Positions 1 to 58,332 of a stretch of DNA of 64,000 nt are shown in pieces; the first letter of the stretch is position 1; each line of letters opens with the position of its first letter. A model generated the notes under the pieces. The model saw only the letters and a list, made by a program, of their open reading frames with translations, ran no database searches and was not told the origin of the DNA. The DNA lies in the NCBI GenBank assembly GCA_002189035.1, contig CM007990.1, positions 1,984,001-2,048,000 on the forward strand, in the 5' to 3' direction. The stretch is from Utricularia gibba (Eukaryota; Streptophyta; Magnoliopsida; Lamiales; Lentibulariaceae). The position numbers and the translations under genes were made by a program.

Positions 1-659
1 GATGCTTGAAGTGGCGCTCTGGCTAGCGGTTCTTGCGTCCCTTCTCCCAAGCGGAACTTCCCATCGGGGTCCTCCGAGCTACGCAACATCAATGAACCCA
101 AGGTTCTGATATCATCATCCCCATATGCATACCAGAGTAGGGAAAACAGGAATAATGAAGAGAGATTGAAAAATGGGCACCGACCAACTCAACTCCATCT
201 CGTGCAGCCAAAGCCAAGATATCAGCGCAAGAAACGGTTCTGGGGCAAGAAGCTTCAACTTGGGTTTTGATGGCATCGATCACCTCGAATCCACGCAGTG
301 AGTTCCTATTCGGAGGCGCTCCCTTTTCTCCGGTGAACCGTGCCGTGTCATCCAACAACACCGATGCATCACATCCCTAAAAACGCAGTAAAAAAATTAA
401 TTTAAATGAAAATTTTTTTGAGTGGTATGCATAGTTTACGTACGTTAACGAAGCAATCGTGGAAGAACATCCGCAGAATCGAAGCTCCCATTCTCCGATC
501 CCTGTTGACGGCGCTGGTCATGCCACGGCGTACAATTGTTTCAAGGTTGGGACAGGTGGTGGCATGGAACCTCCTATTGAGCTGCGCATCAGCTGCTGAG
601 CTGAAAAGAAGCGCAGCCACGAAGAGAAACACGGAGAAACCGGTGACCGAAGACGCCAT
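1..659 (-). CDS. Class III peroxidase, left copy (3' part beyond window)
   Basis: Secreted haem peroxidase using H2O2 to oxidise phenolics in the apoplast. Exons on the minus strand are 659-444, 376-185 and 78-1; the third is cut after 26 codons by the window edge. The visible part is identical to the complete gene at 57203-58332: ATG at 657-659, signal peptide of about 25 residues ending SSAADA, the distal FFHDCF motif (His67, Arg63), the GCDAS motif, and SCP...VSCAD. Introns are GT-AG and both fall between codons. The proximal-His half of the protein lies outside the window, so it cannot be said whether this copy is intact. It is divergent to a MULE insertion about 740 bp upstream. Confidence 0.93.
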
Positions 660-742
660 TGCTGTTGCCAAGAGAATTCAGCGATGCCACTGGTTTGTAT
701 TGCAATCAAATGGCTTATGGTTTTTGCATGGGGTTCATGCCA

Positions 743-749
743 ATTTATA
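743..749 (-). promoter_or_regulatory. TATA box of left peroxidase copy
   Basis: TATAAAT read on the minus strand, 84 bp upstream of the ATG, identical to 57113-57119 in the right copy. The spacing allows a short leader of about 50 bp. Inference from consensus and position only. Confidence 0.6.
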
Positions 750-1397
750 GGCACAAAAAGATACCTCGAGAGGATCCGCAAGTAACAGTTTCCGCGTAGA
801 CGATGAATTTTTTATCGTTGACGTGAAATGAGTAGGTGACCAATCTTCTGACCACGAAAACAAATGTCAAAAGCTGTCCGATTGCATCCCAAAGAGAAGG
901 GGGGAATTAGGCACCGGTTCCAGAGCAAGAAAGCTATCCAAAATTCAACCCACTCGTTCATATAAAAAACTTTCGGGGCAATGGTTGGCTCCACCACTCA
1001 ACTGTTACATTTGAAATGACGGGTTTGGTATAGAAACTGATTTCCATATGACTAAGAGCCAGATAAGGATCCCTTGACTCAACCAATCCCCCACCGACGT
1101 CCACGGGCCATCTCCAAAACCAGTTCAAAAAGTCGTGCAGAAATCACCCTCCAAAATCCTTTGCCGAACCTTGACGGATGGATTGAACGGAACAGAACAA
1201 CCGTGGGTTGATGAATCAAGAGTAGTGATGGGTCGACCACCAGGCACTCATACAAAGGCGTGGGCCGGGCATTTCTTAAGGCCATTGGACGGATCCGACA
1301 GTTGTATGTTGGTCATGAATCATTATGTAATTGATATATAATTGACACCAGCTATATTTCCCGGCCCATCACTGGGATGTTGATTCAGTCGTAATCG

Positions 1398-1462
1398 TTT
1401 TCACTTTTGCCATCAAACTTTTTTTGTTTCACTAAAATCATTAAATATATATGAACCGTTTC
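1398..1462. repeat. MULE terminal inverted repeat, inner 65 bp (3' side of the transposase)
   Basis: Pairs as reverse complement with 5862-5926. The same sequence is present at 56400-56464 in the right arm. The outermost GGG-type terminus expected by comparison with the other end is missing. Confidence 0.8.
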
Positions 1463-54944: not shown

Positions 54945-56464
54945 TATCCCAAGTGCTATTACACAAGAAATTCAAGTGATGGTAAATTTCGAATTTAACT
55001 AAATTTTCATTAAAATCTGAATATGTTTGTCATACTATGATTTTTTAGGCCAACAATTGTGTGAATAACTCTTCACAACAACCTCTTATCATTACTCAAA
55101 ATGAGTCTAAAGTTATTCCAAGTGCAACAGTGAAAACAAATCAGGTTATTATTTAATCTATATTTTTTATACGTGTATTTACGTATATTTTATTATATAT
55201 ATTGATAATTAGGTAAAACGACCATGCAAAATGTTGAGTACACGGGGAAGAGGTGGAGGCATGGTTCAAAATGAAGGAAATAAAAGACATCATGAAAAGG
55301 TATAGTTGGGTGTTTATACAAAGGAAAATTTAGAGTTAAAATATCAAAATGAGATTTATATTTGATTGTTGTTAAATTTTCTTGAAAGATTTAAAGTGTA
55401 ATAGTAATTGAAAGAATATATCAAAGTTTAGTGTACACTTGTGATTTACATGAAGTTTCTTTTTTCTCCATTTTATATTACTTTCAAAGATTCTCTAAAA
55501 CAGAAACATTTGATTTTAAAATAAAGATGAAAATGCTCTATCGTCACCATAATTATATTAGAATTGTCTTTAGTAAATAATGTTGAATGAATGAGTAGTA
55601 TTGATGATAGTACTTTTTTGGTTGCATTTTTTACAGACCAAATTACAACCGGTACATAAGAAAAAGAAGGGAACCTCTTCAAGTATAACAATGTTCCAGG
55701 TTTGTAACAATTATTGATGTTAATGCTAATTCAAGTTTTTCCATAACCAATTTTTTTTATTTTGTAAATATCACAAACTATGACACCTGTTAATGCACCT
55801 ATCATTATCAAAGGAGGTCAAAATTTCATCACACTTTCAAACTTGAAAAATTCAGTGAATGTTTTCCATGCCAAAGATGACACTAATTAAACATATGATT
55901 GTAATATTACTTATGTTGTTTACTAACTTTTGTAACAATGGTAATTATATTGTCATATGTATGTTTTTTATTTGATTGCTCATACTCTTATTTCAAGGTA
56001 TTTGAATGATAAATTTTGCTGCATTGGGAAAATATTTAATATAATGCTTATTATAAAAAGTAATTTTAGACATATTCAATGTTATTTTTAAAATTTTGAG
56101 CTTATAATTCAAGTTCCATGTGGTAAAAATAAAAGGAAAAACATGTTATTATATTTTTTAAAAGTTGACCTTTTCTGATTTTGTAAAAAATTAATCAATT
56201 TTGATATTTTAATGGCATTAGTGAAATGATTAATTGGTTTTAATGAAATAAAATAACTTTGGTGGAACTAATGAAAATCAGACATATGTTCAAGGGTTTT
56301 AACGTAAATTTATTACTAAATCGAATATACTGTATTTAAACCGGTCTTATTACCGGTCTAATGACATAAAAAACCGATTTTTATGAATCATTTAAAATTG
56401 AAACGGTTCATATATATTTAATGATTTTAGTGAAACAAAAAAAGTTTGATGGCAAAAGTGAAAA
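54945..56464 (+). mobile_element. Truncated MULE, right copy (transposase 3' exons only)
   Basis: Retains the 3' part of transposase exon 2 (to 54981), exons 55049-55144, 55213-55299 and 55637-55699, the last coding part near 55779-55890, and one terminal inverted repeat (56400-56464). Exon 1 with the DDE core and the other terminus are missing, replaced by about 10 bp (CAAG...) between the flank and exon 2. It is not mobile on its own. Confidence 0.85.
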
Positions 56465-57112
56465 CGATTACGACTGAATCAACATCCCAGTGATGGGCCG
56501 GGAAATATAGCTGGTGTCAATTATATATCAATTACATAATGATTCATGACCAACATACAACTGTCGGATCCGTCCAATGGCCTTAAGAAATGCCCGGCCC
56601 ACGCCTTTGTATGAGTGCCTGGTGGTCGACCCATCACTACTCTTGATTCATCAACCCACGGTTGTTCTGTTCCGTTCAATCCATCCGTCAAGGTTCGGCA
56701 AAGGATTTTGGAGGGTGATTTCTGCACGACTTTTTGAACTGGTTTTGGAGATGGCCCGTGGACGTCGGTGGGGGATTGGTTGAGTCAAGGGATCCTTATC
56801 TGGCTCTTAGTCATATGGAAATCAGTTTCTATACCAAACCCGTCATTTCAAATGTAACAGTTGAGTGGTGGAGCCAACCATTGCCCCGAAAGTTTTTTAT
56901 ATGAACGAGTGGGTTGAATTTTGGATAGCTTTCTTGCTCTGGAACCGGTGCCTAATTCCCCCCTTCTCTTTGGGATGCAATCGGACAGCTTTTGACATTT
57001 GTTTTCGTGGTCAGAAGATTGGTCACCTACTCATTTCACGTCAACGATAAAAAATTCATCGTCTACGCGGAAACTGTTACTTGCGGATCCTCTCGAGGTA
57101 TCTTTTTGTGCC

Positions 57113-57119
57113 TATAAAT
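57113..57119 (+). promoter_or_regulatory. TATA box of right peroxidase copy
   Basis: TATAAAT, 84 bp upstream of the ATG at 57203; identical to 743-749 in the left copy. Confidence 0.6.
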
Positions 57120-57202
57120 TGGCATGAACCCCATGCAAAAACCATAAGCCATTTGATTGCAATACAAACCAGTGGCATCGCTGAATTCTCTTGGCAACAG
57201 CA

Positions 57203-58332
57203 ATGGCGTCTTCGGTCACCGGTTTCTCCGTGTTTCTCTTCGTGGCTGCGCTTCTTTTCAGCTCAGCAGCTGATGCGCAGCTCAATAGGAGGTTCCATGC
57301 CACCACCTGTCCCAACCTTGAAACAATTGTACGCCGTGGCATGACCAGCGCCGTCAACAGGGATCGGAGAATGGGAGCTTCGATTCTGCGGATGTTCTTC
57401 CACGATTGCTTCGTTAACGTACGTAAACTATGCATACCACTCAAAAAAATTTTCATTTAAATTAATTTTTTTACTGCGTTTTTAGGGATGTGATGCATCG
57501 GTGTTGTTGGATGACACGGCACGGTTCACCGGAGAAAAGGGAGCGCCTCCGAATAGGAACTCACTGCGTGGATTCGAGGTGATCGATGCCATCAAAACCC
57601 AAGTTGAAGCTTCTTGCCCCAGAACCGTTTCTTGCGCTGATATCTTGGCTTTGGCTGCACGAGATGGAGTTGAGTTGGTCGGTGCCCATTTTTCAATCTC
57701 TCTTCATTATTCCTGTTTTCCCTACTCTGGTATGCATATGGGGATGATGATATCAGAACCTTGGGTTCATTGATGTTGCGTAGCTCGGAGGACCCCGATG
57801 GGAAGTTCCGCTTGGGAGAAGGGACGCAAGAACCGCTAGCCAGAGCGCCACTTCAAGCATCGCTTCGCCCTTCTCCGATCTGCCGGGGTTGATCTCGAGC
57901 TTCGCCGCCAAAGGCTTCTCCGCTCGTGAAATGGTGGTCCTCTCCGGGGCCCACACCATCGGCTTCGCTCAGTGCCGCGTATTCCGCAACCGCATCTACA
58001 ACGAGACCAACATCGATCGAACCTTCGCCTCTCGGCGGCGCGCCACCTGTCCTTCCTCCGGAGGCGACTCCAATCTCGCGGCGCTCGACGCTACAACTTC
58101 CCTTTCCTTCGAAAAAAATTACTACGACAACCTCTTGGCTCGCCGCGGACTCCTCCATTCCGACCAACAGCTCTTCAACGGCGGGTCAACGGATTCTATT
58201 GTTCGTTTTTACAGCGGCAATGAAGCTGCTTTCAGGAGGGATTTTGGTGCGGCGATGGTGAAAATGGGGAACCTCAGCCCCCTCACCGGAACCGCCGGAG
58301 AGATTAGAAGAAACTGCCACTTCGTGAACTGA
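57203..58332 (+). CDS. Class III peroxidase, complete right copy
   Basis: Secreted plant peroxidase (H2O2-dependent oxidation of phenolics; cell wall or vacuole). Exons 57203-57418, 57486-57677 and 57784-58332, with GT-AG introns in phase 0; 318 residues, normal for the family. Signal peptide residues 1-25 (ending SSAADA), giving the usual Gln start. Distal site Arg63, Phe66 and His67 in [10 protein letters not shown]; proximal haem ligand His193 in [14 protein letters not shown]. All eight conserved Cys are present (TTC, HDC, GC, ASC, VSC, AQC, ATC, RNC). The ATG at 57203 is the first in frame. The common third intron of the family is absent. The gene looks intact. Its last 222 coding bases are copied downstream at 59547. 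Confidence 0.96.

Follow-up and report, generated by a model that had tools for sequence, protein, structure and literature searches.

Probable gene conversion between inverted peroxidase genes of Utricularia gibba, with one tract end inside a Mutator-like element

INTRODUCTION

One-sided invasion has reportedly been described in plant break repair, with copying that proceeds from homology and another end that is joined non-homologously. Here, we analyze a 64,000-nucleotide stretch of the Utricularia gibba genome (the window, on contig CM007990.1, here C2), in which two inverted arms each carry a peroxidase gene, assigned to class III on general knowledge of plant families, and in which a Mutator-like element (MULE) is nearly whole in the left arm and cut in the right. 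Window base 1 is C2:1984001, and 0 and negative positions denote the bases preceding the window start. The locus resembles one-sided invasion with end joining in that one tract end lies in homology, the other is a non-homologous joint, and the donor appears to have been copied in part. It differs in being a natural case, read in a genome assembly, that involves inverted paralogues and a stop inside a transposon.

Passages of PMC4423477 describe ectopic strand-annealing repair with filler DNA of 1 to 123 bp at excision sites of DNA transposons in rice. Template copying at a break and patchwork joints near DNA transposons would be common to those cases and ours, whereas here a tract of ~4 kb would have been copied from an inverted locus that is homologous, and excision of a transposon was not seen. 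In the maize P1-wr cluster, kilobase stretches common to paralogous copies are explained by conversion, according to sections of PMC2686159; the sharing between paralogues is similar, but the maize repeats are in tandem and ours form an inverted pair 52 kb apart. Part of PMC4052342 also describes gene conversion among duplicated genes, and a portion of PMC8277862 mentions abortive gap repair of DNA transposons. In the latter, copying of an element halts part way, as it may have done here, although the gap there stems from the element's own excision and our right arm was probably an empty site. The mechanism is already known from plants, and the locus is a clear natural instance of it rather than a new kind. 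It is not named in the titles and abstract openings of the literature searched, in which subscription journals were thinly covered.

RESULTS

A near-identical tract inside an older inverted duplication

The sequence-only reading of the window had claimed that positions 1 to 2917 and 54945 to 57861 are reverse complements, introns and spacer included. This was borne out, with no mismatch and no indel in 2917 positions. The pairing of x with 57862-x breaks down from 2918 onward and runs outward without a difference for 752 bases past the window start. Base-by-base alignment beyond that start, a check proposed in the same reading, gave a gap-free alignment of 4100 bp at 99.73% identity between left -1179..2920 and right 59041..54942. 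Its 11 mismatches comprise nine at -1173..-1064, one at -752 and one at 2918. We thus define a near-identical tract of 3981 bp with one substitution, which extends in the left arm (plus strand; 1..2917 within the window) from -1063 (C2:1982937) to 2917 and in the right arm (minus strand) occupies 54945..58925, pairing with left 2917..-1063. The repeat length of 2.9 kb given earlier is a truncation of this tract by the window edge, and outside it diverged homology takes over. The tract ends were placed after inspection of the mismatches, which is immaterial at such a size.

We searched the genome (100.09 Mb, 516 contigs) with the arm and scored the best 40 of 48 candidates, so that counts are lower bounds. 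Among these 40, the two arms alone were full-length copies, and the next-best matches reached 92% and were partial.

The sequence directly beyond the tract is much older. The outer mid segment (58926..59550, minus strand) is homologous to left -1722..-1064 with 46 substitutions in 621 positions, plus indels. At this rate of 7.4%, the probability of at most one difference in 3981 positions is about 10^-130, and the comparison of 1/3981 inside with 46/621 directly outside gives a likelihood ratio of 178. Further out, to -3866 on the left and 63445 on the right, the outermost segments differ at 94/794 and 161/1261 positions. This outermost part of the old inverted duplication (61346..63445, minus strand; left -3866..-1786) is 12 to 13% diverged. 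By eye it looks like a retroelement fragment; the single frame searched in it (62386-63042) had no Pfam match.

On the inner side, older homology links 5962..6150 in the left arm (plus strand) with 54774..54937 in the right (minus strand). The sequence-only reading had noted a diverged flank here (5962-6150 versus 54774-54934), and it is real: 5962-6072 and 54937-54830 align over 111 bp at 90.1% with BLAST, and the same stretch gives 13 substitutions in 108 positions with MAFFT. A longer, looser alignment gives 29/167. Beyond this flank, between left 6100-9500 and right 50500-54800, only short weak matches were found among those listed. The uneven divergence of arm and flank claimed in that reading was thus upheld by the counts in both directions. 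Taken together, they suggest at least three layers, with ~12-18% divergence in the non-coding outer parts and in a peroxidase remnant described below, ~7% in the mid segment and 0.025% in the tract. As older homology persists on both sides of the tract, the recent event would be a replacement inside an existing pair. A single recent insertion of the entire right copy, from -1722 inward, was also considered and rejected given 46/621 in -1722..-1064 versus 1/3981 in -1063..2917.

Directly beyond the right inner flank lies an imperfect palindrome of ~520 bp (54245-54764), 80.8% identical to its own reverse complement, with many partial relatives across the genome.

The inner end of the tract lies in a MULE cut in one arm

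The left arm carries a nearly whole MULE at 1398..5961 (minus strand), whose transposase frames are broken by stops. The domains DBD_Tnp_Mut, MULE and SWIM (PF03108, PF10551 and PF04434) were found in three separate minus-strand frames. The right arm holds the peroxidase-side 1.5 kb of the element (54945..56464, plus strand), which is identical to left 1398-2917; the other end is missing. Left 2918-5961 is the remaining part of the MULE, a point absent from the sequence-only reading, and it explains why the two inner flanks lie at unequal distances from the repeat.

Long terminal inverted repeats are typical of MULEs, as is a target-site duplication of about 9 to 11 bp. Compared by eye with other copies, the far (right) terminal repeat of the left-arm element runs to where members of the family normally end, the near (left) one is ~37 bp short, and no target-site duplication was seen. 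A related MULE on C409 is complete at both ends, with a 10-bp target duplication (by eye), and a table in PMC4423477 gives a duplication length of 9. The part shared by the arms differs from the relatives on C409 and C142 at 98/1505 and 105/1512 positions, respectively. The part found in the left arm only differs from C409 at 34/552 and 151/2440 positions and from C142 by 158 mismatches in 2514 columns (BLAST). The roughly equal distance on either side of 2917 indicates one element, half of which is present in the right arm.

The two tract ends are of different kinds. The outer boundary, near -1064, lies inside homologous sequence. At the inner one, identity ends in the middle of the MULE and the right arm passes directly into the older inner flank at 54944/54945, so that 2917/2918 = 54945/54944 is a non-homologous joint. 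Across this joint (54928..54952, minus strand), MULE sequence ending in TGGGATA is followed by the flank word TTTCTTG and then by ten T. The hexamer TGGGAT is present where the MULE sequence breaks off and again, within 1340-1397, in sequence flanking the left insertion site. It could have guided the joint, and a six-base agreement could also arise by chance.

A paralogous locus lacks the MULE

A paralogue on C328 has the gene, the promoter and the inner flank, with no MULE at that place. C328:396539-399113 matches gene and promoter, with 196 substitutions in 2339 positions relative to left -1063..1330. A second match, to the inner flank of both arms (5964-6133 in the left one), follows 120 bp further on at C328:399234-399402. 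On the simplest view, the MULE was thus inserted later, in the C2 lineage. By eye, the right flank reads TTTCTTG ahead of the run of ten T, and C328 reads TTTC ahead of a shorter T run; the left flank begins with a ten-T run directly following the MULE end. These short words, aligned by eye, fit a right arm that was formerly an empty site.

Proposed event

A recent ectopic gene conversion between the arms is highly probable on these sequence comparisons. Copying probably went from left to right, and it is rather likely that end joining closed the break within that one event. We propose the following course. An old inverted duplication would have produced two oppositely oriented peroxidase genes ~52 kb from each other, and a MULE would later have inserted ~740 bp upstream of the start codon of the left gene. 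We infer that the right arm recently suffered a double-strand break close to the position matching the MULE insertion and that the left arm served as repair template. The peroxidase-side end would have copied the left arm, replacing ~2.5 kb of gene and promoter; synthesis would then have entered the MULE for 1.5 kb and halted. The new end would have been sealed to the other break end, i.e., the old flank, by end joining. The expected outcome is a 3981-bp tract with one difference, an outer end in homology and an inner end at a non-homologous joint inside the MULE.

A substitution rate of 7e-9 per site per year, as in Arabidopsis, would place the event ~18,000 years ago (95% limits, about 450 to 100,000). 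Substitution rates in Utricularia are said to be elevated in a part of PMC4358910, which would make the event younger.

Peroxidase genes, remnant and interior block

The right-arm peroxidase gene (57203..58332, plus strand) has exons at 57203-57418, 57486-57677 and 57784-58332, giving 318 open codons. The left-arm gene (659..-470, minus strand; 1..659 in the window) has exons at 659-444, 376-185 and 78..-470. Splice sites were picked by eye and then translated. The two genes are identical, as no arm mismatch falls in -470..659. Domain PF00141 (profile cut-off, 27 bits) was found in the exon pieces, the last exon scoring 1.2e-40 in one profile search and 7.1e-42 in another.

The right arm also contains an older, second peroxidase remnant (59547..61350, plus strand), made up of the 3' part of the last exon and downstream sequence and split by a long trinucleotide run. 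A PF00141 piece at 59499-59654 scored 26.6 bits, slightly below the cut-off. The remnant adjoins the downstream region of the complete copy at 59547-59550, where GAAA is common to both (by eye). Its downstream part differs at 80/527 positions from the left arm and at 92/506 from the right primary copy. Rewriting of the left outer segment by this remnant was considered and rejected, as the left segment differs from the remnant at 80/527 positions and from the right primary copy at 47/687. The trinucleotide run, nearly pure and of AAT/ATT type, covers ~540 bp (59896-60434); no counterpart was seen in the left-arm alignments.

Inverted arms may promote inversion of the block between them, which is reasonable on general grounds. 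We queried the interior with 6160-25000 and 36000-54200 (37 of its 48 kb), scoring the best 39 of 832 and the best 39 of 1253 candidates, respectively. These queries matched mainly repeat families, and no collinear block for the 52-kb interior was traceable with them. A gene with a PCC domain (38589-39296, minus strand), presumably of the AT-hook nuclear-localised type, matched only at C451:1.889 Mb among the best 39 of 1253 candidates. A match at 416 kb on C328, 17 kb from the peroxidase locus of that contig, was set aside because the stretch concerned (~49150-50765) has more than 10 other places in the genome.

A second inverted pair with two-speed anatomy

Another pair, on C402, was picked for its equal scores in the peroxidase search; as a chosen case it yields no rate. 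C402:543772-546022 and its inverted partner 552961-555209 show no substitution and one gap with MAFFT, and one mismatch and two gaps over 2259 bp with BLAST. Homology stops abruptly on both sides of the pair. On the inner side, 202 left-hand and 448 right-hand bases lie unmatched before it returns, with 96.5% identity over 169 bp and 95.2% over 1650 bp. No homology was found on the outer side in the sequence fetched. These alignments suggest that the two-speed anatomy is not unique to the window locus in this assembly. Four peroxidase genes alternate in orientation across C402:543764-555217; the outer two are near-identical and the inner two ~95% alike.

Elsewhere, equal-scoring peroxidase pieces in opposite orientation occur at C508:147461-147892 and C509:14403-14834, possibly on overlapping or duplicate contigs. 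The lengths of contigs C2 (6192500) and C409 (2492500) are exact multiples of 500, perhaps a trace of assembly or polishing.

DISCUSSION

The sequence-only reading had offered a choice between recent conversion and an assembly that placed one locus twice. The logic of that choice is sound, and conversion is the better supported branch. The other branch, under which the assembly duplicated a single locus or reads from one arm overrode the consensus of its counterpart, draws on the near-exact identity across 3981 bp and on the presence of a similar pair in the same assembly. It is improbable in view of the surroundings of the arms. Each arm sits in its own diverged homologous flanks; nine of the 11 mismatches in the 4100-bp alignment are clustered at the outer end; and the right arm halts in mid-MULE and runs straight into its own homologous flank, so that the MULE is cut in one arm only. 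In addition, no third full copy was seen among the best 40 of 48 candidates. Arms of 4 kb should be spanned if the assembly was made from long reads, as the sizes of its contigs suggest, which also weighs against an artefact. Strong selection that holds two old copies identical might be invoked as the tract includes peroxidase coding sequence, yet the identity is just as complete in the introns, the promoter, the spacer and the half of a decayed transposon, and -643..-249, the end of the last exon with downstream sequence, differs at 29/389 positions in the remnant and 27/380 in the C328 paralogue. We consider this explanation scarcely credible.

Two variants of conversion differ in how the right arm came to hold half a MULE, and each seems unlikely to us. 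The right arm may have been fully converted, whole MULE included, and have lost the far 3 kb in a separate deletion reaching the old flank. That course would give an identical final sequence, at the price of two events and of a deletion whose end must fall only a few bases from the old insertion site, with any converted flank beyond it removed as well. The MULE may instead have been present in both arms, with the far end on the right lost long ago and the shared part homogenised later in either direction. A tract end at the edge of shared sequence would then be expected, since heterologies are said in part of PMC4052342 to block conversion. The bases of the right flank, however, resemble the MULE-free C328 site rather than a MULE end, as judged from short words.

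Several points weigh against conversion from left to right with closure by end joining. Its direction depends on the whole versus the half MULE alone, the one feature that also bears on whether the exchange was non-reciprocal and the donor kept its own sequence, and the state of the right arm before the event is not preserved in the sequence. Identity that spans 2.5 kb on the invading side would call for widening of the gap or for heteroduplex repair over a long stretch. A chimeric join in the assembly is a further, if improbable, possibility. The age of the inner flank is poorly fixed by the alignments, since the left-right pair (29/167) is no closer than either arm is to C328 (24/170 and 19/138). 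The C402 pair could be a plain recent duplication, a possibility raised by the lack of outer homology in the sequence fetched there, and a second such pair could reflect a systematic assembly fault.

More broadly, we tentatively suggest, as a doubtful extension, that in this compact genome inverted peroxidase pairs have undergone repeated homogenisation through template copying that finishes at non-homologous joints. Such concerted evolution would also carry transposon pieces into sister-gene promoters. Two rounds would be recorded at the window locus, an older one with its joint at 59547-59550 and a recent one with its joint at 54945; the C402 pair would be another case.

Conversion between the C2 arms would leave a clean natural record, readable at both tract ends, of a plant cell that probably copied a gene from its inverted sister until synthesis halted within a transposon. 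In such pairs, two old genes appear young, which misleads the dating of duplicates; the pairs can also shift transposon pieces toward promoters.

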